Assembly: GCA_011525625.1 (NCBI GenBank)
Contig: WYAX01000016.1
Coordinates: forward strand, 62,001 to 126,000
Source of the DNA: Nitrospira defluvii
GTDB lineage: Bacteria > Nitrospirota > Nitrospiria > Nitrospirales > Nitrospiraceae
Direction of reading: 5' to 3'
DNA length: 64,000 nt
Below are positions 2,185-37,400 of the stretch, in pieces. Each line of letters starts with the position of its first letter. The stretch's first letter is position 1. The notes below the pieces were generated by a model. It was not told the origin of the DNA and made no database searches. It was given only the letters and a program-made list of their open reading frames with translations. Position numbers and translations under genes: made by a program.

Positions 2185-2217
2185 CGTGATGGGTCTTTGT
2201 CGCGAGGAGGTGTGGTG

Positions 2218-3624
2218 ATGTCGGTTCACGTGGATGAGATGTGGGAAGCCCTCCCGACCGGTTGCGTCTCCCCCAGGGAGCTGTCGCGGGACAATCCTTA
2301 CCTGGAGCGCCAGGCCGCGCGGGAATCGAATGCGCGCAGTTATCCCCGACGACTGCCGTTGGCCCTGAGCAAGGGAAAGGGCCTGTATGTACAGGATACC
2401 GACGGCCGTAGCTATATCGATTGTCTGGCCTGCGCCGGGGCGCTGGCCCTCGGACATAACCATCCGGTCGTCGTCGAGGCGATCAACCGCATGTTGCGGG
2501 ATGGCCTGCCGTTCCAAACACTGGACCTGACGACACCCGTGAAAGACCGGTTCGTGAGTACGCTCTTCGACTGTCTGCCGCCTGCATTTGCCGAAGGCGC
2601 GAAAATCCAGTTTTGCGGACCCTCGGGTGCGGATGCGGTGGAAGCCGCCATCAAGCTTGTCAAGATCGCGCGCGGGCGCCGGACGGTGTTGGCGTTTCAC
2701 GGGGCCTATCACGGGATGACGCACGGCACCCTGGGACTGACGGGGCATCTGGCGCCGAAGGAAGCCGTGAGCGGGCTAATGGCCGACGTACATTTTCTGC
2801 CGTTTCCCTACGATTACCGTTGTCCCTTCGGTGTCGGCGGGGAAAAAGGCGTGCGACTCTCCTCGGCCTACATCGAACGGCTCTTGGACGACCCCAACAG
2901 CGGAGTCGTGGAACCGGCGGGCATGATCTTGGAAGTCGTGCAGGGGGAAGGCGGGGTCATCCCGGCGGCCGTCTCGTGGCTTCAAGAGATCCGCCGCATC
3001 ACCGCGCAACGGGGAATTCCCCTGATCATCGACGAGGTGCAGACGGGACTCGGGCGAACCGGCCGCCTGTTTGCGTTCGAACATGCCGGCATCGTGCCTG
3101 ATGTCGTGGTGCTGTCCAAGGCCGTCGGTGGGGGATTGCCGCTCAGCGTGGTCGTCTATCGACCCGAATGGGATCGGTGGACCGCCGGGGCCCATGCCGG
3201 CACGTTCAGGGGCAACCAACTTGCCATGGCGACGGGCCAGGCCACCATGGAATTCATCGTGGCCGAACGGATCGACGAACATGCGGCCCGCATGGGGGAG
3301 CGTCTCTTCGGATTGCTCCGACGGATTCAGGCCGAGTCCCGGAGCATCGGCGATGTACGGGGGCGCGGGCTTATGTTGGGCGTGGAGATTGTGGACCGGG
3401 ACGAGCCGACGGATTTCCCGGGTTGTCACCCCTGTGCTCCGGGACTCGCATCGGCGATCCAGCACGAAGCCCTGCGTCGAGGGCTGATCCTCGAGTTAGG
3501 CGGGCGTCATAACAGCGTGGTCCGTTTTCTGCCGCCCCTCATCGTGACGGCGGAGCAGATCGATACGATCGCCACCATCTTCGCAGATGCCGTGAGGGCA
3601 GCTGAACAACAACACGAGGCATGA
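2218..3624 (+). CDS. L-2,4-diaminobutyrate:2-oxoglutarate aminotransferase (class III)
   Basis: This 468-residue class III PLP-dependent aminotransferase makes 2,4-diaminobutyrate from aspartate semialdehyde with glutamate as donor. Family motifs are AGALALGHNHPVV near the N-terminus, FCGPSGADAVEAA (cofactor phosphate region), IIDEVQTGLGRTG with the PLP-ring Asp, and VVLSKAVGGGLP with the Schiff-base lysine at about K301. The TLDLTTPVKDRF stretch is typical of the Dab/PvdH branch. The frame opens at a TTG at 2197, but a clear AGGAGG at 2205-2210 sits 7 bp before the ATG at 2218, which I take as the start. Three adenylation domains in this operon carry a Dab-type code (DIWELTADD), so this gene probably supplies three residues of the product. 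It overlaps the acylase gene by 4 bp. Confidence 0.92.
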   Translation: MSVHVDEMWEALPTGCVSPRELSRDNPYLERQAARESNARSYPRRLPLALSKGKGLYVQDTDGRSYIDCLACAGALALGHNHPVVVEAINRMLRDGLPFQTLDLTTPVKDRFVSTLFDCLPPAFAEGAKIQFCGPSGADAVEAAIKLVKIARGRRTVLAFHGAYHGMTHGTLGLTGHLAPKEAVSGLMADVHFLPFPYDYRCPFGVGGEKGVRLSSAYIERLLDDPNSGVVEPAGMILEVVQGEGGVIPAAVSWLQEIRRITAQRGIPLIIDEVQTGLGRTGRLFAFEHAGIVPDVVVLSKAVGGGLPLSVVVYRPEWDRWTAGAHAGTFRGNQLAMATGQATMEFIVAERIDEHAARMGERLFGLLRRIQAESRSIGDVRGRGLMLGVEIVDRDEPTDFPGCHPCAPGLASAIQHEALRRGLILELGGRHNSVVRFLPPLIVTAEQIDTIATIFADAVRAAEQQHEA

Positions 3625-6008
3625 TGACCGGGCGCCGTCTCTTCGCCATTGCTATCGGGAGCATGGTCGCCGGAGCCGCCGTGCTCTGGCTGGTCTGCTC
3701 CGCTTCGCTGCCGGTTCGCGACGGCGCCTTGACGCTTCCGGGATTGCAGGCGCCGGTGGCGGTGGCCTTCGACGGGTATGGCACCCCGACCGTGACCGCC
3801 GAATCCCGCGTCGATGCGTTCCGGGTGCTTGGTTATGTGACGGCTCAGGACCGTCTCTTTCAGATGGATCTCCTGCGTCGCACAAGCGCGGGACGGTTGG
3901 CCGAGATCTTCGGCGACCAGGCCGTGCCGATCGATGTCAAACAGCGCCGGCTCGGTCTGTCGAGGGTGGCGGAAGCGGTGCTGCGGAGGCTCCCCGCGGA
4001 TCAGTCGGCCGTGCTGTCGGCCTACGCCGAGGGCGTGAATACGTTTCTGGAGGAGATGAGGATCCCGCCGTTCGAATGTCTCGTGCTGGCCTACCGTCCG
4101 ACCCGATGGGAGCCGACAGACAGTCTCCTGGTCGTTTTGGCGATGTTCCAGATGCTGAACGGTTCCGAGGACGATGAACGGATGCGGACCGTGATGAAGG
4201 CCTCGCTGCCGGAAGATGTCGCGGGATTTCTGCTCCCTTCGCTCGACCCGTACACGGCACAGCTGCTGAGGGGAGGGAGTCGTCATGAGATGCCGGCTCC
4301 GGTACCGGTGGAAGCCTTGGCCGCACTTCGCCGGACAGGGGCGCAGAGCCGCTCGTCGCAGATGTCGATGGTGCCGAGCCGGAAACGGGAGATCGGCTCG
4401 AACGCGTGGGTCGTGGGACCGACAAAAACTGCGGACGGCAGAGCCATCCTGGCGAACGACATGCATCTCGATGTGGGAGTGCCCAACATCTGGTATCGAG
4501 TTCAGTTGCGCTACGGGAGGAGTGAACTCAGCGGAGTCGTGGTGCCCGGCATTCCGGTTGTCATTGCCGGTTCCAACGGGTCGGTGTCCTGGGGCCTCAC
4601 GAACGTCGAAGGGGATTTTCTGGATCTCGTACGCCTCGAACTCAACCCGCAGAATCCGAACGAGTATGCCACGCCAGAGGGGTGGGAGCGGTTCATTCAG
4701 CGCCAAGAGCGCATTGCCGTCAGCAGCGGTCCTGATCGGATCGTGGACATTCAGGAGACGCGTTGGGGACCTGTGGCGGAGGAGCCGTTGATGGGAGAAC
4801 CGGTCGCACTCCGTTGGACGGCCTTGGATCCGGAAGCGGTGGATCTCGGCTTGCTTCACATGGACCAGGCCCGTTCAGTTTGGGATGGCATCGCCGTCGC
4901 CACGCGGGCGGGAACGCCGCCGAACAATATCCTCTTGGCAGATGCCGGTGGGCACATTGCCTGGACCTATATGGGAAGAATTCCAATCCGGCGTGGCCTG
5001 GATGGCTCGGTCAGCCAGTCCTGGTCCGATGGACGGACTGGATGGAGTGGGTTCATTCCGCCGGACGAACTTCCCCGGATCGTCGATCCTCCCTCCGGGT
5101 ACCTCGTAAGCGCCAATCACCGTATGACGGACGAGACCTACCCCTACGTCATCGGCCACGCGTATGCGAGCGGGTACCGTGCCGTTCGTATTACGGAACG
5201 ACTGCGCGGCATGGAGCGAATTCGAGAGCAGGACCTGCTGGCGCTCCAATTGGATACGACGACTCAGGTCTACGACTTCTACCGCGACCTGTTGCGAGGC
5301 CTGCTCACCGATGACGTGATCGCCCGACGCCCAGAGCTGGCGGACGCGCGCCAGGCCGTCGACAGGTGGGATGGACGGGCAGACAAGGACAGTCGTGGAT
5401 TCGCCTTGCTGGTCATGTTTCGCCGAACTCTTGGGGCCTCCGTCTTCGCTCCGTTTCTCCAGGGCTGTCGAGAGAAAGACGCCGGGTTCGTGTTCGACGG
5501 CGATCTCGATACACCGCTCAGAAGTCTGCTTGTGGAGCAGGCGCTTGCCACGTTGCCGGACCCTGTGACGTTTGCGGACTGGCCGTCATTCCTCCTTCAT
5601 GAATTGGCTGAGACCGTCGCAGTCCTCAAGGCGGACTATGGGATCTTGCGTCTCGACGATCTGGCCTGGGGCATGGCGAATCGAGTGCGTATGACCCATC
5701 CGCTCAGTGAGGCCCTTCCGGTCGTGGGACGATGGTTGGACATGGGGGACGACGCCGTCTCCGGCTGCGGGCCCTGTGTGCGCGTGCAGAGCGGGAGTTT
5801 GACCGCCAGTGAACGGATGGTGGTCTCACCGGCGCACCATACGGACGCGTTGTTTCATATGCCGGGCGGCCAGTCCGGGCATCCGCTCTCAGCGCACTAC
5901 CGCGATCAGCAACGCAACTGGAGTCAGGGCCTTCCGACCTCGTTGCTGGCCGGAACACCGATCCAGACACTGAAGTTTTCGCCGGAGAGTCGTGCCACTC
6001 GATTGTAA
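3621..6008 (+). CDS. Ntn-hydrolase acylase, penicillin acylase/PvdQ family
   Basis: This 795-residue protein has the layout of penicillin-acylase-type Ntn hydrolases. It has an N-terminal hydrophobic export segment (residues 5-27), an alpha chain, a spacer, and a beta chain whose nucleophile is the serine at about S260, in the motif [11 protein letters not shown]. The Gly-Ser bond before it is the expected autocleavage point. Other family blocks seen include ILANDMHL and [15 protein letters not shown]. In pyoverdine producers the homologue PvdQ removes the fatty acyl chain of the precursor in the periplasm. The same role here is inferred from the operon context: exporter upstream and NRPSs downstream. 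It starts in a 4-bp ATGA overlap with the aminotransferase, so the two are translationally coupled. An alternative start is the ATG at 3624. Confidence 0.88.
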
Positions 6009-7092: not shown

Positions 7093-8127
7093 ATGAATCA
7101 TGAAAGAGGAACGTCCTGTGCGCCGCTCGCCGGCGTCAATGGCAGTCTGCAGGAGCAAGGGGGACTGACGGCCGAGCCGCTCACGGCCGACGGCCGTCTG
7201 CCCTGCGTCGTGACGCCCACGGAAGACCGTCGATTGGATGAGTATTTCGAGGCGGCCCGTTACTATGCGAACACCTTGCTACCCTCCTGCGGAGGCTTGC
7301 TGTTTCGCGGCCTGCCGGTTCGCTCCGTTCACGACTTCGAATCCTTCGTGAGTGCCTTCACGGCCTCCCTCGTGTCTTATGAATTCGGTTCCACGCCGAG
7401 ATCGCAAGTCCAGCGGCACGTCTATACCTCGACGGAATATCCGCCGCACCAACACATTCCGCTGCACAACGAACAGGCCTACACCAGGGAATGGCCGATG
7501 AAGATCTGGTTCTACTGCGGTCATGCGCCCGTCGAAGGCGGATATACCCCGATTGCGGATAGCCGTGAGGTCTATCGATGCATACCGGCCCGCATTCGCG
7601 AACGGTTCGCCGAAAAGCAGATCATGTACGTCCGCAACTACGGAAACGGCTTGGACGTGCCGTGGCAAAAAGTGTTCAACACCCACGAACCAGCGGTCGT
7701 GGAACAATTCTGCCGCGACAACGACATTCACTACGAGTGGAAGGAAGACGGCGAATTGCGAACCAGGCAAGTGGCGCAGGCGGTCGCGACCCATCCTCGC
7801 ACGGGCGAACGGGTGTGGTTCAATCAGGCTCACCTGTTTCATGTCTCGAATCTGGATCCTGCAGTGCGCGAGGCCCTGTTGGCCGTCGTGTCGGAAGAGG
7901 ACCTTCCCAGAAACGCCTGTTACGGCGACGGGAGCCCGATCGAAGCCGATCTTCTCGATGAAATTCGAGACGTCTACCGGAGCCTTGCCGTCCAATTCGC
8001 CTGGCAGCAAGGCGACGTGATGATGCTCGACAACATGCTGGCCGCCCACGGCCGGACGCCGTTTACCGGGCGCCGGCAGATCCTCGTCGCCATGGCCGAA
8101 CCGAGGGGAGCCCAAGGTCCATGCTGA
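7093..8127 (+). CDS. Stand-alone Fe(II)/2-oxoglutarate beta-hydroxylase, SyrP/TauD-like
   Basis: This 344-residue protein is of the TauD/SyrP superfamily. The iron-binding facial triad can be read as H125-x-E127 (PLHNEQAY) and H319 (NMLAAHGR), with the 2-oxoglutarate-binding Arg at R327/R328 (FTGRRQI). It is clearly related to the hydroxylase domain fused to NRPS3: shared blocks include YPP, EGGxTPI and MYVRN. Enzymes of this type in siderophore clusters hydroxylate the beta carbon of carrier-bound aspartate, and stand-alone members have been linked to L-erythro beta-hydroxy-Asp. The likely target here is one of the two Asp modules, possibly module 5 of NRPS3; this is inference. The gene ends in a 7-bp overlap with NRPS1. 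Confidence 0.9.
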
Positions 8128-22486: not shown

Positions 22487-25400
22487 ATCGCACATCGAAG
22501 CCATGTATTACTTGTCCCCGCTGCAGCAGGGGCTGCTCTTTCATCGCCTCGCCGACGCGGCGTCCGATCCCTACTTCTACCAGTATGCCTATCGCTTGCG
22601 GGGCGACCTGCGACTGGACGCCTTCGAGGAAGCCTGGCAATCGGCGGTGGACCGCCATGCCGTGCTGCGGACGGCCTTCATCTGGGAAGGAGTGGAGAAA
22701 CCGCTGCAAGTCGTCCGCCGGCAGGTGCGGCTTCCGATCGAGCGCCATGATTGGCGAGGCGTACCCGAGGAGGAACAACGCGCGCGGTTTCAGTCCTTGC
22801 TCGAACGCGATCGCACCGCTGGAGTAGATCTGCTTCAGCCGCCCCTGATGCGGCTCCATCTGATTCGGAAGGAGGAGCGCGAGTGGCTGTTGGTCAACAG
22901 CCACCACCACATCCTGTTGGATGGATGGAGCATGGCCATCCTGTTGCGTGACGTGCTCACGGCTTATGAAACGCTCGTGACGGGGAAGACTGCGGCATTG
23001 GCGACCACCAGGCCCTATCGCGACTACATCTCGTGGGTCAATCGCCGGGACATGCAGCAGGCGGAAACCTATTGGCGCGGGATGTTAGCGGGATTCGCGC
23101 GGCCGACCACCATACCGATCGAGGCTCCGTCTGAACAGATGAGCGCCGACTCATGGCCGTTCGCCGAACAGTGCTGGCAATGGTCAACGGAGAAGACCGA
23201 TGCGCTGCAAGCGTTCGCCAAGCGGTGCAGGGTCACCGTCAATACGGTATTGCAAGGAGCCTGGGCCTTGCTGTTGCATCGCTATAGCGGAGATCAAGAC
23301 CTCTTGTTCGGCGCGACCGTCTCCGGGCGCACGCCCGAGCTGGCCGGCGTGGAGGACATCGTCGGGCTCTTCATCAACAGTTTGCCGATTCGTATCTCGG
23401 TTCGACCGGAGCAGAAGCTGGCGGACTGGCTGCGTGCTCTGCAGGAGCAGAATGCGACGTTGCGGCAATATGAATGGACTCCCCTCAGCGACATCCAACG
23501 TTGGAGCGACGTTCCCAACGGAACAGCTTTGTTCGAGAGCCTCCTGGTGTTTGAAAGTTACCCGGAGGCCACCGACGACCACACGCCCTCGCTCATCATC
23601 GAACCGCTGGCTGCAGAACGAACCGGCACGTATACCTTGACACCGGGGCGTAACAACTATCCGCTTTCGCTGATGGTGGAGCCGGGCCGGGACCTGCGTG
23701 TCATCGTCTGCTACGCCCACCGGCGGTTCGCGCATGCAGCGATCACCCGGATGATCGGGCATCTGGAGGCGCTACTGACCGCGATGGTCGAGAACAGGGA
23801 TGCCGCAATCGGGACCCTGGGCATGACCACTGAGCGGGAAGAGCGGCGACTCGCAGACTGGAACGGTTCCCTTTCAAGCGGCGAGCCGGAAGAGCGTTGC
23901 ATCCATGATGTGATCGCCGCCCACGTGCAAGAGCAGCCCGATGCGGTGGCGGTCGTCACGAAACTGGAGCGGGTGACCTATGGTGAGCTGGACCGTCGGG
24001 CGAACCGGCTGGCCAGATATCTTCAGGCGCAAGGAATGAAGGTGGAGGACCGGGTCTGCCTCTGTCTGGACCGGTCGCTGGATCTGGTCGTCGGAATGCT
24101 CGCCGTGCTCAAGGCCGGCGGGGCCTATGTGCCGCTGGATGCGAGCTATCCTCGTGAACGGCTCGCCGCGATGGTGGCCGACAGCGAGTCCCGTTTCCTC
24201 ATCAGCCGAAGCGAGGACGCAAAAGGCCTCGAACAGGGCCACGCGCATCTGATCCTGCTGGACCGCCAAGCCGGGGTCATCGGGAATGGCGATGACACCT
24301 CGCTCGCAACACGAGTGTCGCCCCGCAATCTTGCCTATGTGATCTATACCTCCGGCTCTACCGGCCGCCCTAAGGGAGTGGCGGTGGAACATCGCCAGGT
24401 GACGACCTATGTGAACGCCATCCTGCAGCTTGAACCGGTCGCGGCCGGAAGAAGCCTGGCGGCCGTCTCGACCGTAGCGGCTGATCTCGGCAACACGGCG
24501 CTGTTCGGTGCGCTCTGTTCCGGCCGCACGCTGCATCTCCTTCCGACCGAAGACAGTTTCGACCCCGATGCCATGGCCGCAGCCATGCATGATCGGCAGG
24601 TCGAGGTGCTCAAGATCGTGCCGAGCCATCTGAAAGGGCTCCTCCATGCCGCCCATCCCGAACGGGTGTTGCCCACTCGCTGTGTGATGCTCGGGGGAGA
24701 AGCCCTGCGTGGCGATCTCATCCGAGAGATTCGACGATTGGCCCCGGCCTGTGCCATCGTGAACCACTATGGGCCGACCGAAACGACGGTCGGCTGCTTG
24801 GCCCATGTGATCCAAGAGTCAGCCGACGCGATTGCAGCCGGCGCGCCGATCGGTCGACCCTTCTCGTCTGTACAAGCCTACGTCCTCGACGGTCATGGCC
24901 GGCAGACTCCCGTCGGCCTCCCGGGTGAACTCTACATCGGTGGATCGCAAGTCACGCGGGGCTATCTCAACCGGCCGGAGGCCACGGCGGAACGGTTTGT
25001 GCCGGATTCCTTCGGCAGCCGGCCCGGAGGCAGGCTCTACCGGACGGGGGACCGGGCGAAACGCAGGGCCGACGGCACCATCGAATTTCTCGGACGCGTG
25101 GACCACCAGGTGAAGGTGCGCGGGTTCCGCATCGAATTGGGCGAGATCGAAGCGCAATTGCGGAGGGACCCGGAAATCTCCGATGCGGTCGCTGTCGTGC
25201 GCGAACAAGCAGACGGCACGCAACAGCTCGCAGCCTATGTGACCGGTCCATCTTCACTGGATACGCAAGCCGTTCGAACCAAGCTCCTTTCCCGTCTCCC
25301 CGAGTACATGGTGCCGAACGCCTTGGTGCGATTGGAGGCTTTTCCACTGACGGCCAACGGCAAGCTCGACCGGGCCGCCTTGCCTGATCACGGGCTGCAG

Positions 25401-28400: not shown

Positions 28401-31400
28401 GTGGGGCGACGCGATCATCAAGTGAAGCTCCGCGGATTCCGCATCGAACTGGGCGAGATCGAGGCGCGGCTGGCGCAACATCCCGAGGTGGACCGCTGTG
28501 TCGTCGTCGTGGCGGAACCGCAGCGCGGACATCAGCAATTGGTGGCCTACGTTGCCACGGCGGCCGCGCTGCATGCCGATGGGTTGCGGGTCTTTCTGCG
28601 CCGTACCTTACCTGACTACATGGTGCCGGCCTTGTTTGTCTTGCTGCCTGCCTTGCCGCTGACGCCGAACGGCAAGATCGATCGAAAGGCCTTGCCCGTA
28701 CCGGATGCGGATCGTGCGGCGGACGATTTCGAACCGCCGGCTACACCCACGCAGGACCTTGTCGGGGGGATCTGGGCCGAGATTCTCGGTCTGGATCGCA
28801 TCGGCAGGCGCGATCACTTTTTCGAGCTGGGAGGCCATTCACTCCTGGCCACTCAAGTCATGTCCCGTGTGCGCACCACGTTCCAAATCGAACTGCCGTT
28901 ACGGACATTATTCGACCATCCCACGGTAGAGGCCTTTGCCGCAGCCATCGATCAAGCGGTGACACAAGGCGACGAGACTCACGTGCCTCCGCTTCTTCCG
29001 ATGCCAAAGACTGATGCGATGCCGCTCTCCTTCGCGCAGCAGCGCCTCTGGTTCCTGGCGCAAATGGACCCGGACAGCGGCGCCTACAACTTGCCGTTCG
29101 CCCTGCGCCTGGGCGGCACCGTGAATCATCACCTGCTCGAGCGCAGTTTTCTCGCCCTGATTCGCCGGCATGAAACGTTGCGCACGACCTTTCCCGCAGT
29201 GGACGGAGAACCGCGGCAGGTGATCGTCGAGGCGGATCACTTCCCGATCCCCATCGAGGACCTGGCAGCCTTGTCGGAGTCCGAGCGGACGGCGACCATC
29301 AGCCGGTATGTGGAATCAGAGGCGCATGAGCCCTTTCGCCTCGATCGAGACCTGCCGATCCGTGCGCGCCTCCTCAGGATCAGCGCCGAGGCGCACATCC
29401 TCCTCGTGACGGTTCATCATATCGCCGCCGACGCCTGGTCCTTGGCGGTGGTGACCCATGAAGTCGCGGCCCTCTACAACGGGTTGGCACGGGAGCAGGA
29501 TGGCGAGCAGGTCCCGTCGAACGATGCTTCCGCAGCGCTCCTGCCTCCGCTGCCGATCCAGTACCGCGACTTTGCCTTGTGGCAACGGCAATGGCTCCAG
29601 GGTCCCGTACTCGAACGGGAGATCGGGTATTGGAAGCAACGATTGGGATCGGCGCCGCCTCAGCTGACGCTTCCGACCGATCACCCGCGGCCCGAGCAGC
29701 AGAGTTATCGCGGCGGACGGATCACGTTCCACATACCGGCAGAGGTGCTCGAACCGCTGCGGCGATTGAGCCGGCGGCAGGGCGTGACCCTGTTCATGAC
29801 GTTGCTGGCCGCGTTCAAGGTGCTGTTGTCCCGGTTGGCCAGGCAGACCGATATCCTGGTCGGCACGGATGTCGCCAACCGCAACCGCGCCGAAACCGAG
29901 CAGCTGGTGGGATTTTTTGTGAATCTGCTCCCCCTGCGTACGGACCTCAACGGGAACCCTTCGTTCGTGCAGCTCTTGGGACGCGTACGGGACACGGCGT
30001 TGGGTGCCTATGCCCATCAGGATGTGCCCTTCGAAAAAATCGTGGAGTCGCTCAAGTTGCAGCGGGATCTCGGGAGGAATCCGCTGGTGCAGGTGTTGTT
30101 CGTGCTTCAGAACGTGCCGCCTCCGTCCCTGCAGTTGTCCGGTGTGGATGTGGAGTCGCTGGAATTCGAACACGAGGTGTCGCGATTCGACGTGGGACTC
30201 TTCATGGAGGAAACGGAGGACGGTTGCGCGGGTCTCTGGAAGTTCAGCCGCGACCTGTTCGAGTTCGAGACGATAGCCGGATGGACGGATCGTCTACTGG
30301 GACTGTTGCGGCAGATCGGACTCTCGCCCGAGCGGGGGATCGACACGTTGGGCTGGGAGGATGAACGGACAAAGGAGGCGCAGACCATGGATCAGCAGCA
30401 ACGAACCGAGCAACGGCTCCAGCGATTCAAGGCGATCAAGCCGAAACCGATCGCCTTGGCCCAACGCACGTTGGTGACCGGTCGCCCGCTCCTGGAGGGC
30501 CATGCGATGCCCTGGATCTATACTCCGGCGGTGGAAGACGTCGATCTGACGGGATGGGTCGGAGAACACCGCAGCCGATTGCAGCGTGAACTACTGCAGT
30601 CGGGCGCACTGTTGTTCCGCGGGTTCGCGCTCAAGACGGTGCAGGACTTCGAGTCCGTTGCACAAGCCTTTTGTCCCAATCTCTTCGGCGAATATGGCGA
30701 TCTGCCACGGGAGAAGAGCGGCCGCCATATCTATGGATCGACACCCTATCCGCCGGACAAGCCCATTCTCTTCCACAACGAGAGTTCCCACATGCATCGG
30801 TGGCCGCAGAAGCAGTTCTTCTTCTGCCTCCAGGCCGCGCAGGAAGGCGGTCAGACCCCGATCGTGGACGGCCGTCTGATGCTCAAGGGGCTTCGAGCCG
30901 AGCTGCGCGAGCGGCTGCGCGCCAAACAACTGATGTATGTCCGCAACTTTCTTCCCGGCGTAGATGTGAGCTGGCAAGACTTCTTTCACACCACCGACAA
31001 AGCAGAGGTGGCGGCCATCTGCGCCGCGAACGGCATGGTCTGGCAGTGGTTGGAGAAGGAGGGCTTACGGACCCAACAACTGTGTCCCGCCATCATCGAG
31101 CATCCCGATACGGGCGAGGCGGTGTTCTTCAATCAAATCCAGCTACATCATGTCTCCTGTTTGGAGCCCGCGGTGCGCGAGTCCCTCTTGTCGATGCTCG
31201 GTATCGATTCTCTGCCGCGAAACGTCTACTACGGTGACGGTACACCGATCGAGGACGAAGTGGTCGATGAGATCGGCGCCTTGTACGAGCGGACCGCCGT
31301 ACGGTTTCCGTGGCAGGAGGGGGACCTCATCATGCTGGACAATATGCTGGTAGCGCATGCCCGAGATCCCTTCGTCGGACCCAGAAAAATCGTGGTCGCC

Positions 31401-31448
31401 ATGGGAGACATGATCGCGCAGTCCGCCGTTCACTCCATGACGTCGTAG
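22476..31448 (+). CDS. NRPS3: C5-A5(Asp)-T5-C6-A6(Dab)-T6-C7 fused to Fe/2OG beta-hydroxylase
   Basis: This 2990-residue protein begins at ATG 22476 after a GGAGAG. The frame is open from 22440, but that start lacks a ribosome site. C5 ([17 protein letters not shown] at 144-145) follows the E domain of NRPS2. A5 has pocket residues DLTKMGHVG(K), an aspartate code, and T5 has S1020 (GGDSI). C6 begins near 1110 with an altered HHILTDDW (1245-1246). A6 reads DIWELTADD(K), i.e. Dab, and T6 has S2122 (GGHSL). C7 begins near 2184 with HHIAADAWS (2314-2315). No A or T domain follows C7. Instead, residues 2638-2990 form a TauD/SyrP-like hydroxylase with H2767-x-E2769, H2961 and an Arg near 2970. This matches the fused beta-hydroxylases of siderophore NRPSs, which are associated with L-threo beta-hydroxy-Asp. 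Its partner is probably the interface-like domain opening NRPS4. Confidence 0.95.
30371..30389 (+). promoter_or_regulatory. Internal Shine-Dalgarno plus in-frame ATG before the fused hydroxylase domain
   Basis: Inside NRPS3 a perfect AAAGGAGG (30371-30378) lies 8 bp before an in-frame ATG (30387) located exactly at the junction between C7 and the hydroxylase domain. Translation from here would give a free hydroxylase of 353 residues starting [10 protein letters not shown]. It may be an active internal start or the relic of a formerly separate gene. Confidence 0.55.
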
Positions 31449-31457
31449 GGGGAAGGC

Positions 31458-34400
31458 ATGCAACAGGAAATCGAGATCGAAGGATTACGACTCTCGCCGC
31501 AACAGAAGAGGCTCTGGCTGTGGCAGCAGCAGGGTCATTTCAGCCTGGGACGAGCCGTTGTCACGCTGGACGGCGCATTCGACGAGGACGCGGTGTTGGC
31601 GGCGCTTCGACGGGTGATCGCCCGGCACGACAGCCTGCGGACGACGTTTTATCGTCAACCGGGCATGAAGGTGCCGTTTCAGGTCGTCCATGAGGCAGGG
31701 GACGTGGACTGGCAGGTGCTCGATCTCCGTCATCTCACCCGGGATGGCGAACGCGAAGAAGCGCTGGAGCAGGTGGCCCATCGGAGTGACGCGCCTGATT
31801 GGGAACGTGGACCGCTCGTGCGCGCCGTCTTCTGTCGATGGACGGAGACCCATGCGCGGGTTCTCCTCGACATACCGGGTCTCTGTGCCGATGCCAAGTC
31901 GCTGTCGAACATGGTTGCCGAACTAAGCCGTGCGCTGGACGGAGATCCCGGCGATCTAGGGGACGACCCCGTTCAATATGGACAGTTTTCAGAATGGCAG
32001 CATGAGCTGATCGAAGCGGAAGAGGCGGCCCAGGGACGAGCCTGGTGGTCTCGTTACACCGGCGCCGGGCCGGGCAGGGTTGTCCTGCCGTTTGAACGAG
32101 ACCCTTCTCTCAGAGACTCCGATGCCGGGAGACGGCCGATCCATCGGGCGCTCTCAACGGCCGAGATCCGGCGGTTGCAGGACCGGGCCGGCGACGCTCA
32201 CGTCTCCCTGCCTGTGCTGTTGTCTGGCTGTTGGTCGGCGCTGCTCTCTCGCATGACCGAGTCGCGCGAGGTCACCTGCTGGTGGCGAACCGACGGCCGT
32301 CCGTATGAAGAATTGTCCGAGGGGATCGGACTGTTCGAACGGTGGCTCCCGCTTCCCTTCCGGATAGAAGGCAATATGGCGCTCGGAGATCTGCTGTCGC
32401 TGTTGTCCCGCCAACAGGCGCAAGCAGAAGACTGGCAGCAATATTATGCCGGTCGGTCGGAGGACGAAGAACTGCAGGCGGTCAGGGATGCGATCGGCTT
32501 TGAGTACAGCCGTCGTCCTACGCCTCACCGGACGGCGGCCGGTCTCATCGCGCTGGCGGAGCGGTCGCTATGCGCTGAGCCCTTCAAATTGCGCCTGGCG
32601 TGTTTGGAAGATGCCACGGGCCTTGCCATGAGCTGGCACGTCGACCGGGAACGGATCCCGAGCGAGATGATGGAGGTACTGGCGGATCGCTACGTCGAAT
32701 TGCTGCGCGGCCTTCCGGATCGGCTCGACATCGCGATCGATGAGTTGGAGATCGTCGGCGCACAGGAACGGATCAGACTGACGCGGGAACTCAACCGTAC
32801 CGGTCACTCTTGCCAGTCCACCTCTTTGATGCACAGCCTGATCGAGGCTCAGGCGAAACAGCAGTCCGGGCACACGGCCCTGGTTGCCGGCGGTCAGCGC
32901 CTGTCCTATGACGCACTCAACCGCCAGGCCAATCGGATTGCACGGGCGCTCAGACGTCGCGGTGTCACCATCGGGGCCCGCGTCGGTCTCTGCATCGATC
33001 GTTCGGCCGACATGATCGTGGCGATGCTGGGCGTCCTGAAAGCCGGTGCCGCCTACGTACCGATCGATCCGGCCCATGCTGCGGTGCGACTGACTCCGCA
33101 GATGGCCCAGAGCGGCGCGGAGATTCTGTTGACCCGATCGGCGACGGACCAAGCGCTTCTTGGATTCGACGGAGTGAGACTGAATCTTCCTGAGGATGTG
33201 GTAGACGAACCGGATGAGGATCTCGACCTGGCGTTCTCGCCGGACGAACTCGCGTACGTGATCTACACGTCAGGATCGACCGGCCAGCCGAAAGGGGTTG
33301 CCGTTTCCCATCGTAGTCTTGCCAACTATACGTCCGCTGTCACCGGACGATTAGGCTTGGCCGGACGTCTGCAGTTTGCCACCGTCTCCACACTGAGCGC
33401 GGATTTGGGCCACACGGTTATTTTTCCCGCACTCACCTCCGGCGGCTGCCTCCACGTGATCGACTATGAAACCGCAACCGATGGACGGTCGTTCGCCTCA
33501 TACCTCAGCACACATCCCATCGATGTGCTGAAAATCGTGCCGTCCCATTTCAAGGCTCTGCTGGCGACCAGCGAAGGAGAGGCGGTCTGGCCGCGCGCCT
33601 CTCTCATCTTCGGCGGTGAGACCTTGTCCTGGGATCTGGCCGATCAGGTCAGGCAACAGGCGACCTGCCGCGTCATCAACCATTATGGTCCTACGGAAAC
33701 CACGGTCGGCGCCACGACCACCGCCGTGACCGACGACCCCGCACCTCGCATCGCCCGCAGCGTGCCCATCGGGCGTCCGATCGACAATCTGGAGACCTAC
33801 ATCCTGGACGAACGACTGGAGCCGGTGCCGGTCGGCGTGGCGGGAGAACTGTATGTGGGAGGGCTTGGGGTTGCGCGCGGCTATTGGAATCAGCCGGATC
33901 GCACCGCCGAACGGTTCGTTCCCAATCCGCATGCCTCTCAACCAGGATCACGCCTCTATCGAACCGGCGATCGAACCAGGCGGCTACCGGACGGCTCGAT
34001 CGAATTTCTAGGCCGAGTGGACCACCAAGTGAAACTCCGGGGATTCCGGATCGAACTTGGAGAAATCGAGTCGGTGCTGCGGGAGCATCCCGCTATTCAG
34101 GATGCCGTCGTCACGGTTCGCGAAGAGAGCCAGGGTGAATCGTCTCTCGCAGCCTACTATGTGGCACGAGGGGTGGAGCCGGATGGCCGATCCATCCAGG
34201 ATTTTCTCCGCTCCCGTGTGCCGGACTACATGGTCCCGACTGCCGTCATCGCGTTGCCCGCCCTACCGCTGTCCGCCAACGGCAAGGTTGATCGTCATGC
34301 GCTTCCGGAGCCGGAACGCGACGGACAAGGCGTTCGGCACTACGTCGCTCCCGCCACGCCTACCGAAACCATTCTGGCCGGGCTCTGGACCGACGTGTTG

Positions 34401-37400
34401 AAGCGGGAGGGGATCGGCGTGCAGGACAATTTTTTCGACCTGGGCGGGCATTCGTTGCTCGCCACGCAGGTCATGTCCCGGTTACGAACCGCGTTCGCGG
34501 TGGAGTTACCGTTGCGAACGCTCTTCGAGGCCCCCACGATCGGGCAGCTGGCTCTGGTAGTTGAGACGGCGAGAGGGAGCGAGAGGGGAGAGCAGGCCCC
34601 CCCGCTGATCCCGTTTGCGCGAACCGGACCCATCCCGCTGTCGTTCGCCCAACAACGGCTCTGGGTGCTTGCGCAGCTGGAGCCGGACAGTACGGCGTAC
34701 AATATTCCGATCGCCCTGCGCGTCAGAGGGGCGCTTGACGTCGCGGCCTTGGAGCGCAGCTTCCACGAGGTTGTCGGTCGTCACGAATCCTTGCGCACCA
34801 GGTTTCACAGTCTGAACGGGGTTCCGGTGCAGGTGATCGGGCCCGCCCGGCCGTTCACGATTCCGCTCATCGATCTGCAACATCTTCCCGAGGAGCGCCG
34901 TGCGCAGGCGGCCACTCGCTTGGCGGCGGTGGAAGCGGAGCGTCCGTTCGATCTTCGGTACGGGCCGCTCTTGCGCGTCAGTTTGATTCGACTCCGTTCC
35001 GATGAGCACCTTGTGTTGCTGACGTTGCACCACATCGTGTCGGACGCCTGGTCCGCACATGTCCTCGTGCAGGAGCTGACGGCACTCTACGCCGCTGCGG
35101 TCGAGGGGCGTCCGGCTCCGTTACCCGACCTGCCGGTGCAATACGCCGACGTCGCGCAATGGCAGCGGGCGTGGCTGAGCGGCCCGATCCTCGAACGGGA
35201 ATTAGGATTTTGGAAAACCGTGCTGGGCGGTGACTTGCCCGTCCTCAATCTTCCGACGGATCGCCCCAGGCCGGCCGTGCAAACGTCACACGGCGCGATG
35301 GTCACCGCAACCATCCAGCCGGGTCTTTCCGGGGACCTCAGGGCGGTGAGCCGCCGGCTGGGCGCGACTCTGTACATGACGCTTCTGAGCGCATTCTTTA
35401 TCCTGCTGGCTCGCGTTGCCGACCAGTCTGATCTGATCGTCGGAACGCCCATCGCCAACCGGACGAGAAAGGAAACGGAGGGGCTCATCGGCTTCTTCGT
35501 CAACACGCTCGCGATTCGCACGCGCCTCTCGCAGCAGAGCACGATCGCCGACGTCATTGCGACTGTGCGCGAAGCCTGCCTGGAGGCCTATGCGCATCAG
35601 GAGACCCCGTTCGAGAAATTAGTGGACGCGTTGCAACCGTCGCGCGATGTGAGCCGTTCACCGATCTTTCAAGTCATGTTCGATCTTCAGAACGCGCCCG
35701 TGGCCGACTTGCAGGTCAGCGGATTGGAGTTCGAGGCCATCGAGATCGAGACGACGACCGCGAAGTTCGACCTCTCCATGACGGTGCAGGAGGCGGACGA
35801 CGAGTTGATCGTGGGGCTCGAGTACAACACCGATCTCTTCGAGGCCGCCACGGCGAGCAAGCTGCTGCATCAGTATGAGCTGATTGTGGCTTCGTTGGTT
35901 CGAGACGTCCGCATGCCCGTGGGATCGATTGCCTTGTTGACCTCCGGGGAACGGCAGGCCCTGTTGTCGGTGAATCGGGGCTGTCTGCCATCACGGCCCG
36001 CGCTGCCGCCGTCGCGGCTCTTCGAACAGCAGGTGGAACGGACGCCGACCGGGACGGCGGTGGTATTCAAAGACGAGGCCTTGTCCTATGTTGAACTGAA
36101 CCGGAAGGCCAATCGTCTGGCGCGCTGGTTGCGGAGTCGGGGCGTGGGGCCGGAAGGGCGAGTCGGCATCCGCTTCGAGCGTTCCGTGGAGCTGGTCGTC
36201 GCGCTGTTGGCGATTCTGAAGGCCGGCGGAGCCTATGTGCCGATCGATCCGGCGTACCCGGCCGCGCGACAACGACAGGTGGCACTCGACGCAGGACTGG
36301 ATCTCTTGCTGATCAGCGGAGCCGGGCTGCCTGGCGATCATGAGTTCCCCATGCCGGTCCAGTCGCTCGATCTGCTGGGTGACGACCTGCAAGCACTGGA
36401 CGGCGACAATCTGCCGGGCATCTATTCTCCTGACCAAGCCGCCTATGTGATGTACACGTCCGGCTCGACCGGCAGCCCCAAGGGCGTCGTGGTCTCCCAC
36501 GGCGCGCTGTCACGGCACCTGCAAGCCATCGCGCCTGCGTATTGCCTCGGTCCGACTGATCGAGTCTTGCAGTTTGCCTCGATCGGCTTCGACGTGGCGG
36601 GTGAAGAGCTGTGGTCTGCTCTCCTGGTCGGCGCGGCCGTGATGCTGCAACCCTGCCGCCTGTTCGATTCGCTTCCGGAGTTTGCCCGGTTTCTCGATCA
36701 CCAACAGGTGACGGTCGCAGGGGTCCCGGCTTCGTACTGGCATGAATGGATCGGCGCCATTGAGAGCAGCGGCTGCGCGGTGCCCCGGTCCTTGCGGTTG
36801 GTGATCGTGGGCAACGAGCCGGTCGCCTCCACCGATCTTGACCGATGGCGGCGGCTGGTGGGTCCGACGGTACGGTGGCTGAACGCCTATGGTCCGACGG
36901 AAACCACGGTGACTGCCAGCCTTCACGAGCCGGTGCGCACGACGAGGAGCGAGCCGGCGACCGTCCCGATCGGCCGCCCCTTGGCGGGCCGGGCCCTGTA
37001 CGTACTGAACCGAGACCTCGAACCGGTGCCATTCGGGTCGCCGGGAGAGCTCTACATCGGGGGCGAGAGTCTGGCCCGCGGTTATTTGGGGGATCCCGCG
37101 CGCTCGGCTGCGGTGTTCGTGCCGGACCCGTTCAGCGAGAGGCCGGGAGCGCGCCTCTATAAAACGGGAGATCGGGTTCTGGTCCGGCGCGAGGGTACGA
37201 TCGAGTTTCTTGGTCGAGTCGACGACCAGATCAAGTTGCGTGGATTTCGCATCGAACCAGGTGAAATCGAAGCGTGCTTGCGCAGACATCCCGATGTGCA
37301 GGCGGCCTTTGTTCGCCCTCGAACGGACGCGCAAGGCCGAACGAGACTCATCGCCTATGTGGTGCCACGGGAGGCTGGGGTGGTGGAAAGCCAGACGCTC

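Follow-up and report, generated by a model that had tools for sequence, protein, structure and literature searches.

The analysed window, a stretch of 64,000 nucleotides from Nitrospira defluvii (assembly GCA_011525625.1, contig WYAX01000016.1, positions 62,001 to 126,000), carries a predicted siderophore-type cluster of non-ribosomal peptide synthetase (NRPS) and polyketide synthase (PKS) genes. Two consecutive synthetases of this cluster, here named NRPS3 and NRPS4, appear to share one module for beta-hydroxyaspartate between them (Table 1). Domains of these and of the other window proteins were called with Pfam, and the specificity codes of the adenylation (A) domains were read at the ten PheA positions.

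The NRPS3/NRPS4 junction

NRPS3 ends in a condensation (C) domain, C7, and a hydroxylase with neither an A nor a thiolation (T) domain behind it, as the first-pass annotation had claimed. The hydroxylase matches PF02668 over residues 2698-2987 of 3002 (E 4e-47) and Pfam finds nothing C-terminal to it. Its iron-binding HxE...H residues (H113-N-E115 and H307) and the 2-oxoglutarate arginine (R316) are invariant in 14 homologues, consistent with a TauD/SyrP-type Fe(II)/2-oxoglutarate Asp beta-hydroxylase; NCBIfam holds no fitting model for it. It shares 52-56% identity with fused TauDs of cyanobacteria and proteobacteria, and its nearest named relatives among the best 80 of 337 candidates are Nitrospira metagenome-assembled genomes (at most 94% identity) and Candidatus Nitrospira defluvii (89%). 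The TauD of the cyanochelin B synthetase CcsFGH falls in the same tree, the Nitrospira enzyme thus grouping with characterised siderophore hydroxylases of the IBH_Asp / CyanoBH_Asp type, which is taken here as a whole, undivided into IBH_Asp and CyanoBH_Asp1/2.

NRPS4 opens with a condensation-like domain in which PGLCADA stands in place of HHxxxDG, followed by an Asp-type A7 and by T7 (PF00550), again as annotated. In the alignment this motif occurs only in the first domain of NRPS4, HH having been kept in all 12 further C-like domains that the two NRPS loci of the genome encode. The two genes are 9 bases apart. A frameshift cutting one protein in two was considered and rejected, as a stop codon, a ribosome site and a start codon are all present and every homologous pair is split. 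At the junction, 15 residues lie past the last conserved TauD strand and 11 ahead of the first motif of the NRPS4 domain; the corresponding medians for fused cases are a tail of 13 and a lead of 10 residues. With so short a tail and lead there is no room for the usual docking domains, and we therefore infer that NRPS3 and NRPS4 touch through the TauD and the NRPS4 N-terminal domain themselves.

Table 1. Features of the NRPS3/NRPS4 junction and of the second Asp module, in window coordinates.
Feature	Position	Strand	Basis
TauD hydroxylase, standalone; relative of CcsK (cyanochelin B)	7093..8127	+	Pfam, tree
NRPS3: C-A(Asp)-T-C-A(DIWELTADDK)-T-C7-TauD; 3002 aa	22440..31448	+	Pfam, A codes
Ordinary C domain (HHILLDG) ahead of A5, no interface domain	22506-23852	+	
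A5, Asp code DLTKMGHVG	23910..25394	+	PheA positions
C7 condensation domain, histidines kept (HHIAADA)	29004..30389	+	HMM score, alignment
Fused TauD/SyrP-type Fe(II)/2-oxoglutarate Asp beta-hydroxylase, predicted	30417..31448	+	Pfam PF02668, invariant residues
TauD catalytic positions: HNE; distal His; Arg	30774-30782; 31356-31358; 31383-31385	+	
Junction: TAG stop 31446-31448, Shine-Dalgarno-like GGGGAAGG, ATG 31458	31446..31460	+	
NRPS4: I-A(Asp)-T-C-A(DVEGIGAVTK)-T-TE; 2391 aa	31458..38633	+	Pfam, A codes
His-less condensation-like interface (I) domain	31458..32780	+	HMM, alignment, trees, AlphaFold model
PGLCADA replacing HHxxxDG; Asp (D145) invariant, both His lost	31875..31895	+	alignment
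A7, Asp code DLTKIGHVGK	32838..34310	+	PheA positions
T7 carrier domain, ends approximate; proposed Asp carrier during hydroxylation	34350..34600	+	Pfam PF00550
TE, thioesterase; HMM, hidden Markov model.

A histidine-less clade linked to hydroxylases and Asp codes

A hidden Markov model built from the C domains of the window, with C7 and C8 among its seeds, gives the first domain of NRPS4 94 bits, against about 770 for these two seeds and at least 165 for the non-seed C domains; only the epimerisation domain scores lower (68 bits). Its AlphaFold model (pLDDT 86) has a complete C-domain fold and matches solved C-family domains over about 400 residues with Z scores of 33-38 (up to 37.9). Residues D145 and R281, which we take to be the structural salt-bridge pair of C domains, are invariant in 36 sequences. 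Taken together, the complete predicted fold and these invariant residues argue that the fold has been kept and the catalytic His pair lost, so that selection would act on the fold and no longer on the catalytic histidine.

That the histidines had been lost by chance in a single genome was rejected, given that they are absent in all relatives. The missing His pair would also agree with a decayed and functionless C domain, a relic of module fission, beside which the TauD acts on Asp-T7 unaided. Such decay is exceedingly improbable in view of the complete fold, the 62% identity to the N. defluvii counterpart and the retention of the domain, with its invariant residues, across several phyla; nor would decay lead one to expect a single old clade paired almost exclusively with TauD and Asp codes.

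This clade and its pairing emerged from homologous loci gathered through TauD similarity (the best 80 of 337 candidates), which contain 98 His-less C-like domains with a motif that is nearly always [P/S][A/S/G][L/I/M]CAD. After removal of near-copies, FastTree placed 69 of them on one branch (support 0.997, length 0.48), apart from 161 other C-like domains (C, epimerisation and starter). The subtype labels of most C rows in the trees were taken from context rather than from a curated reference set. In an IQ-TREE site-mixture (C20) analysis with the motif columns removed, the split of 22 His-less domains against 47 rows received an SH-aLRT of 100. A regular-expression search of the gathered loci for cyclisation (Cy) domains returned none, and the analysis was repeated with the Cy domain of cyanochelin B, picked by position, as an added row (48 rows); the SH-aLRT was again 100 and the Cy domain fell outside the His-less clade.

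A TauD gene or domain immediately precedes 95 of these 98 domains, and in 92 of the 98 the next A domain has the Asp code DLTK(I/V/L)GH(V/I)G. Where a His-bearing C domain is followed by an A domain whose code can be read, this code occurs just once, at Asp5 of the window. Two His-less C-like domains (L104:10673 and L117:1112) have no preceding TauD, one being followed by the A code DAWQFGLID and the other by DLTKIGEVG.

Two points weigh against taking the clade and its linkage at face value. When the motif columns are left out of the FastTree analysis the support falls to 0.46, though the 69/0 split persists; and fetching loci through TauD under-samples interface domains that have no TauD neighbour, so that the 95 of 98 is biased towards TauD. 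The Asp-code linkage is independent of this choice of loci.

The fold, the lost histidines, the separate clade and the hydroxylase and Asp neighbours together support the predicted assignment of the NRPS4 N-terminal domain to the siderophore-NRPS interface domains, a domain type that goes back to Reitz and others (2019) and is represented by a profile in antiSMASH 8 (both as given in PMC12230676). The first-pass annotation had proposed the same, and two results that could have refuted it bear it out: the domain groups with neither C nor Cy domains, and A7 has an Asp code. The domain is probably non-condensing and in contact with the hydroxylase. It could instead still be catalytic through other residues, for example in a second condensation or an acyl transfer, with recruitment of the hydroxylase as a secondary function. 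The retained motif Asp and much of the C fold would allow for this, and Cy domains are generally known as a C fold that works without the canonical His pair. We consider residual catalysis quite improbable, since each of the nine Nitrospira clusters compared already has an intact C domain upstream, in the end region of the TauD-bearing protein, leaving no condensation missing, and since the Cy row stands apart from the His-less clade.

Conservation of the split module and comparison with known systems

The TauD and the interface domain reside on different proteins in 95 of 95 pairs, none of which forms one continuous frame. Split pairs span Nitrospira, many cyanobacteria, Sorangium, Acidobacteria, Azospirillum, Variovorax and Eleftheria; in Methylocystis the pair is split and its TauD free-standing. 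The first-pass annotation was therefore correct about the arrangement of the module over two proteins, and mistaken in implying novelty, the split being the rule, already known and not unusual. Within the Nitrospira family (nine clusters of about 40 kb each), the unit made of a C-TauD protein end followed by I-A(Asp)-C-A on the next protein is present in 9/9, and because it is kept throughout, the pattern is not a chance one. The number of remaining modules differs among the nine clusters.

The same nine clusters each contain two TauDs and two Asp modules, which leaves room for the fused TauD to hydroxylate another residue, for example the residue 6 discussed below or Asp5, while the standalone TauD serves Asp7. 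The fused TauD indeed shares its protein with T5 and T6. Such an exchange of targets is nevertheless very unlikely, as the fused TauD nearly always adjoins an I-A(Asp) module whatever lies upstream, and as the assignment made for cyanochelin B (PMC12628792) speaks against it.

Cyanochelin B, from Leptolyngbya sp. NIES-3755 (AP017310), is of solved structure, with beta-OH-Asp as residues 4 and 6; in the assignment of its authors, residue 4 comes from CcsI, which follows the NRPS-fused hydroxylase in CcsFGH, and residue 6 from CcsL, which follows the standalone CcsK (PMC12628792). Our re-reading of the plasmid gives PALCADT with the code DLTKIGHVG for CcsI and PSLCADA with DLTKIGHVG for CcsL. 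As at the Nitrospira junction, C-TauD ends one protein (CcsFGH) and a His-less domain-A(Asp)-T starts the next (CcsI), and both clusters also have a second standalone hydroxylase, a PKS/FAAL lipid start and an adjoining siderophore receptor gene. The residues and the starter differ. So does the second Asp module: in cyanochelin B this is CcsL, served by CcsK and bearing a His-less domain, and in Nitrospira it has an ordinary C domain. That the CcsFGH/CcsI arrangement goes with a chemically proven beta-OH-Asp (PMC12628792) lends support to the interface reading of the first-pass annotation.

Potashchelin of Halomonas sp. MG34 is described with the same arrangement. According to the part of its description on which we draw (PMC7100376), FAAL-ACP-C-TauD is followed by C-A(Asp)-PCP on the next protein, and a standalone hydroxylase, PtcA, acts for a second Asp, whose module has an ordinary C domain in front. 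Judged from that description, PtcA and PtcB, the latter with TauD at its end, divide the labour as the two Nitrospira hydroxylases would. The peptide differs (Ser, Gly, Thr and cyclic OH-Orn), and the second C domain is not called an interface domain in that part of the source (PMC7100376).

The pairing of a His-less C-family domain with a siderophore Asp beta-hydroxylase is that of the IBH_Asp and CyanoBH_Asp systems, the cyanochelin hydroxylases having been named CyanoBH_Asp1 and 2 in a 2026 eLife survey, which also reports 16 NRP-metallophore regions in 15/307 Nitrospirota genomes (PMC12971057). The kind of module, its split and metallophore clusters of Nitrospirota are thus already on record; the literature on Nitrospira siderophores yielded no description of this particular cluster. 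The X domain of glycopeptide synthetases (teicoplanin, PDB 4tx2/4tx3; model Z 33.6) is likewise a non-condensing C fold, one that brings an oxygenase to a substrate bound to a carrier. It recruits P450s at the end of the assembly line and the Nitrospira domain would recruit a TauD, a functional analogy that makes no claim of membership.

With the domain order, the missing histidines, the Asp code, the one-clade grouping, the TauD-interface-Asp linkage and its conservation, all computed directly, and by analogy to these systems, we read the locus as a split beta-hydroxyaspartate module of a siderophore-type NRPS line in which the interface domain would hold the TauD of NRPS3 at Asp-T7 (probability about 0.87). 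A7 of NRPS4 would load Asp onto T7, and the interface domain, forming no peptide bond itself, would seat the C-terminal TauD of NRPS3 on Asp-T7. The TauD would then hydroxylate the beta carbon of the carrier-bound Asp using Fe(II), oxygen and 2-oxoglutarate, presumably in the L-threo (3S) configuration, by analogy to cyanochelin B and by the published rule for fused enzymes. After hydroxylation, C7, which would be the domain coupling the T6-bound peptide to the Asp on T7, would move that peptide onto the beta-OH-Asp. The contact between TauD and interface domain probably also keeps NRPS3 and NRPS4 together.

The second hydroxylase and the cluster context

The standalone TauD of the window groups with CcsK (support 1.0) at a large distance (1.4 changes per site) and is the probable hydroxylase of Asp5. 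In 9/9 Nitrospira clusters such a standalone TauD, with no interface partner, occurs beside an Asp-coded module preceded by an ordinary C domain and a domain of the epimerisation type. Either this enzyme acts without an interface domain or it borrows that of NRPS4. This hydroxylase without an interface partner and the junction free of docking domains are the mildly new features of the locus. A tentative extension, which we would rate below even odds, is that the TauD-interface pair serves as a handshake between the synthetases and that, in the same assembly line, the hydroxylation of one Asp involves an interface domain and that of the other, by the standalone enzyme, does not.

For the remaining modules, A2 and A4 have the Ser code DVWHLSLIDK, and A1, A3 and A6 have DIWELTADDK, presumably the code of diaminobutyrate. 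This reading fits with a diaminobutyrate aminotransferase gene in the window (2197-3624; NF005393, 773 bits against a cut-off of 671). Some of the diaminobutyrate- and Ser-coded modules are absent in two of the related clusters (G001, G038), and codes are altered relative to the window in three others (G055, G025, G033); sequence comparison thus points to loss, gain and swapping of modules between close Nitrospira relatives.

The window also holds genes for an ECF sigma factor (FecI), FecR, TonB-dependent receptors, a PepSY protein, TonB and ExbB, together with exporters of the RND and the cyclic-peptide ABC kinds, a set that one would expect beside siderophore synthetases. Cyanochelins are compounds with two beta-OH-Asp residues and a lipid tail; on the gene side, the Nitrospira cluster has two Asp modules, a pair of hydroxylases and a FAAL/PKS start. 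Judged by its genes, the locus is a siderophore-type NRPS/PKS cluster that is conserved in Nitrospira.

Just upstream of the window, a loading protein FAAL-ACP-C-A with the code DVENIGAVT (L009:9542-15271; G000:C4) ends in a methyltransferase-like stretch (EVGFGMG...DTYP) that replaces the A-domain lid and has no Pfam match; it is reminiscent of guanidinoacetate methyltransferase. The lid (GKVDRKAL) and a T domain are encoded on a separate overlapping open reading frame (L009:15273-15917), this A domain being therefore split over two proteins. The same split of the loading A domain was seen in G038, and none in the stretch of G001 covered. At 3621-6008 the window encodes an acylase of the penicillin-amidase family, weakly PvdQ-like (50 bits against a cut-off of 950), which may trim the acyl chain during maturation; in Leptolyngbya boryana an acylase gene adjoins the TauD-interface genes.

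These results support the view that nitrite-oxidising Nitrospira carry a conserved cyanochelin-type cluster for a beta-hydroxyaspartate lipopeptide, which opens iron competition and photoreactive siderophores to testing in this group. That hydroxylase and interface domain lie on different proteins in every pair seen constrains models of how the pair works. If the proposed handshake and the hydroxylation of one Asp without an interface domain were true, Nitrospira would offer a natural side-by-side comparison from which the purpose of the interface domain could be tested.

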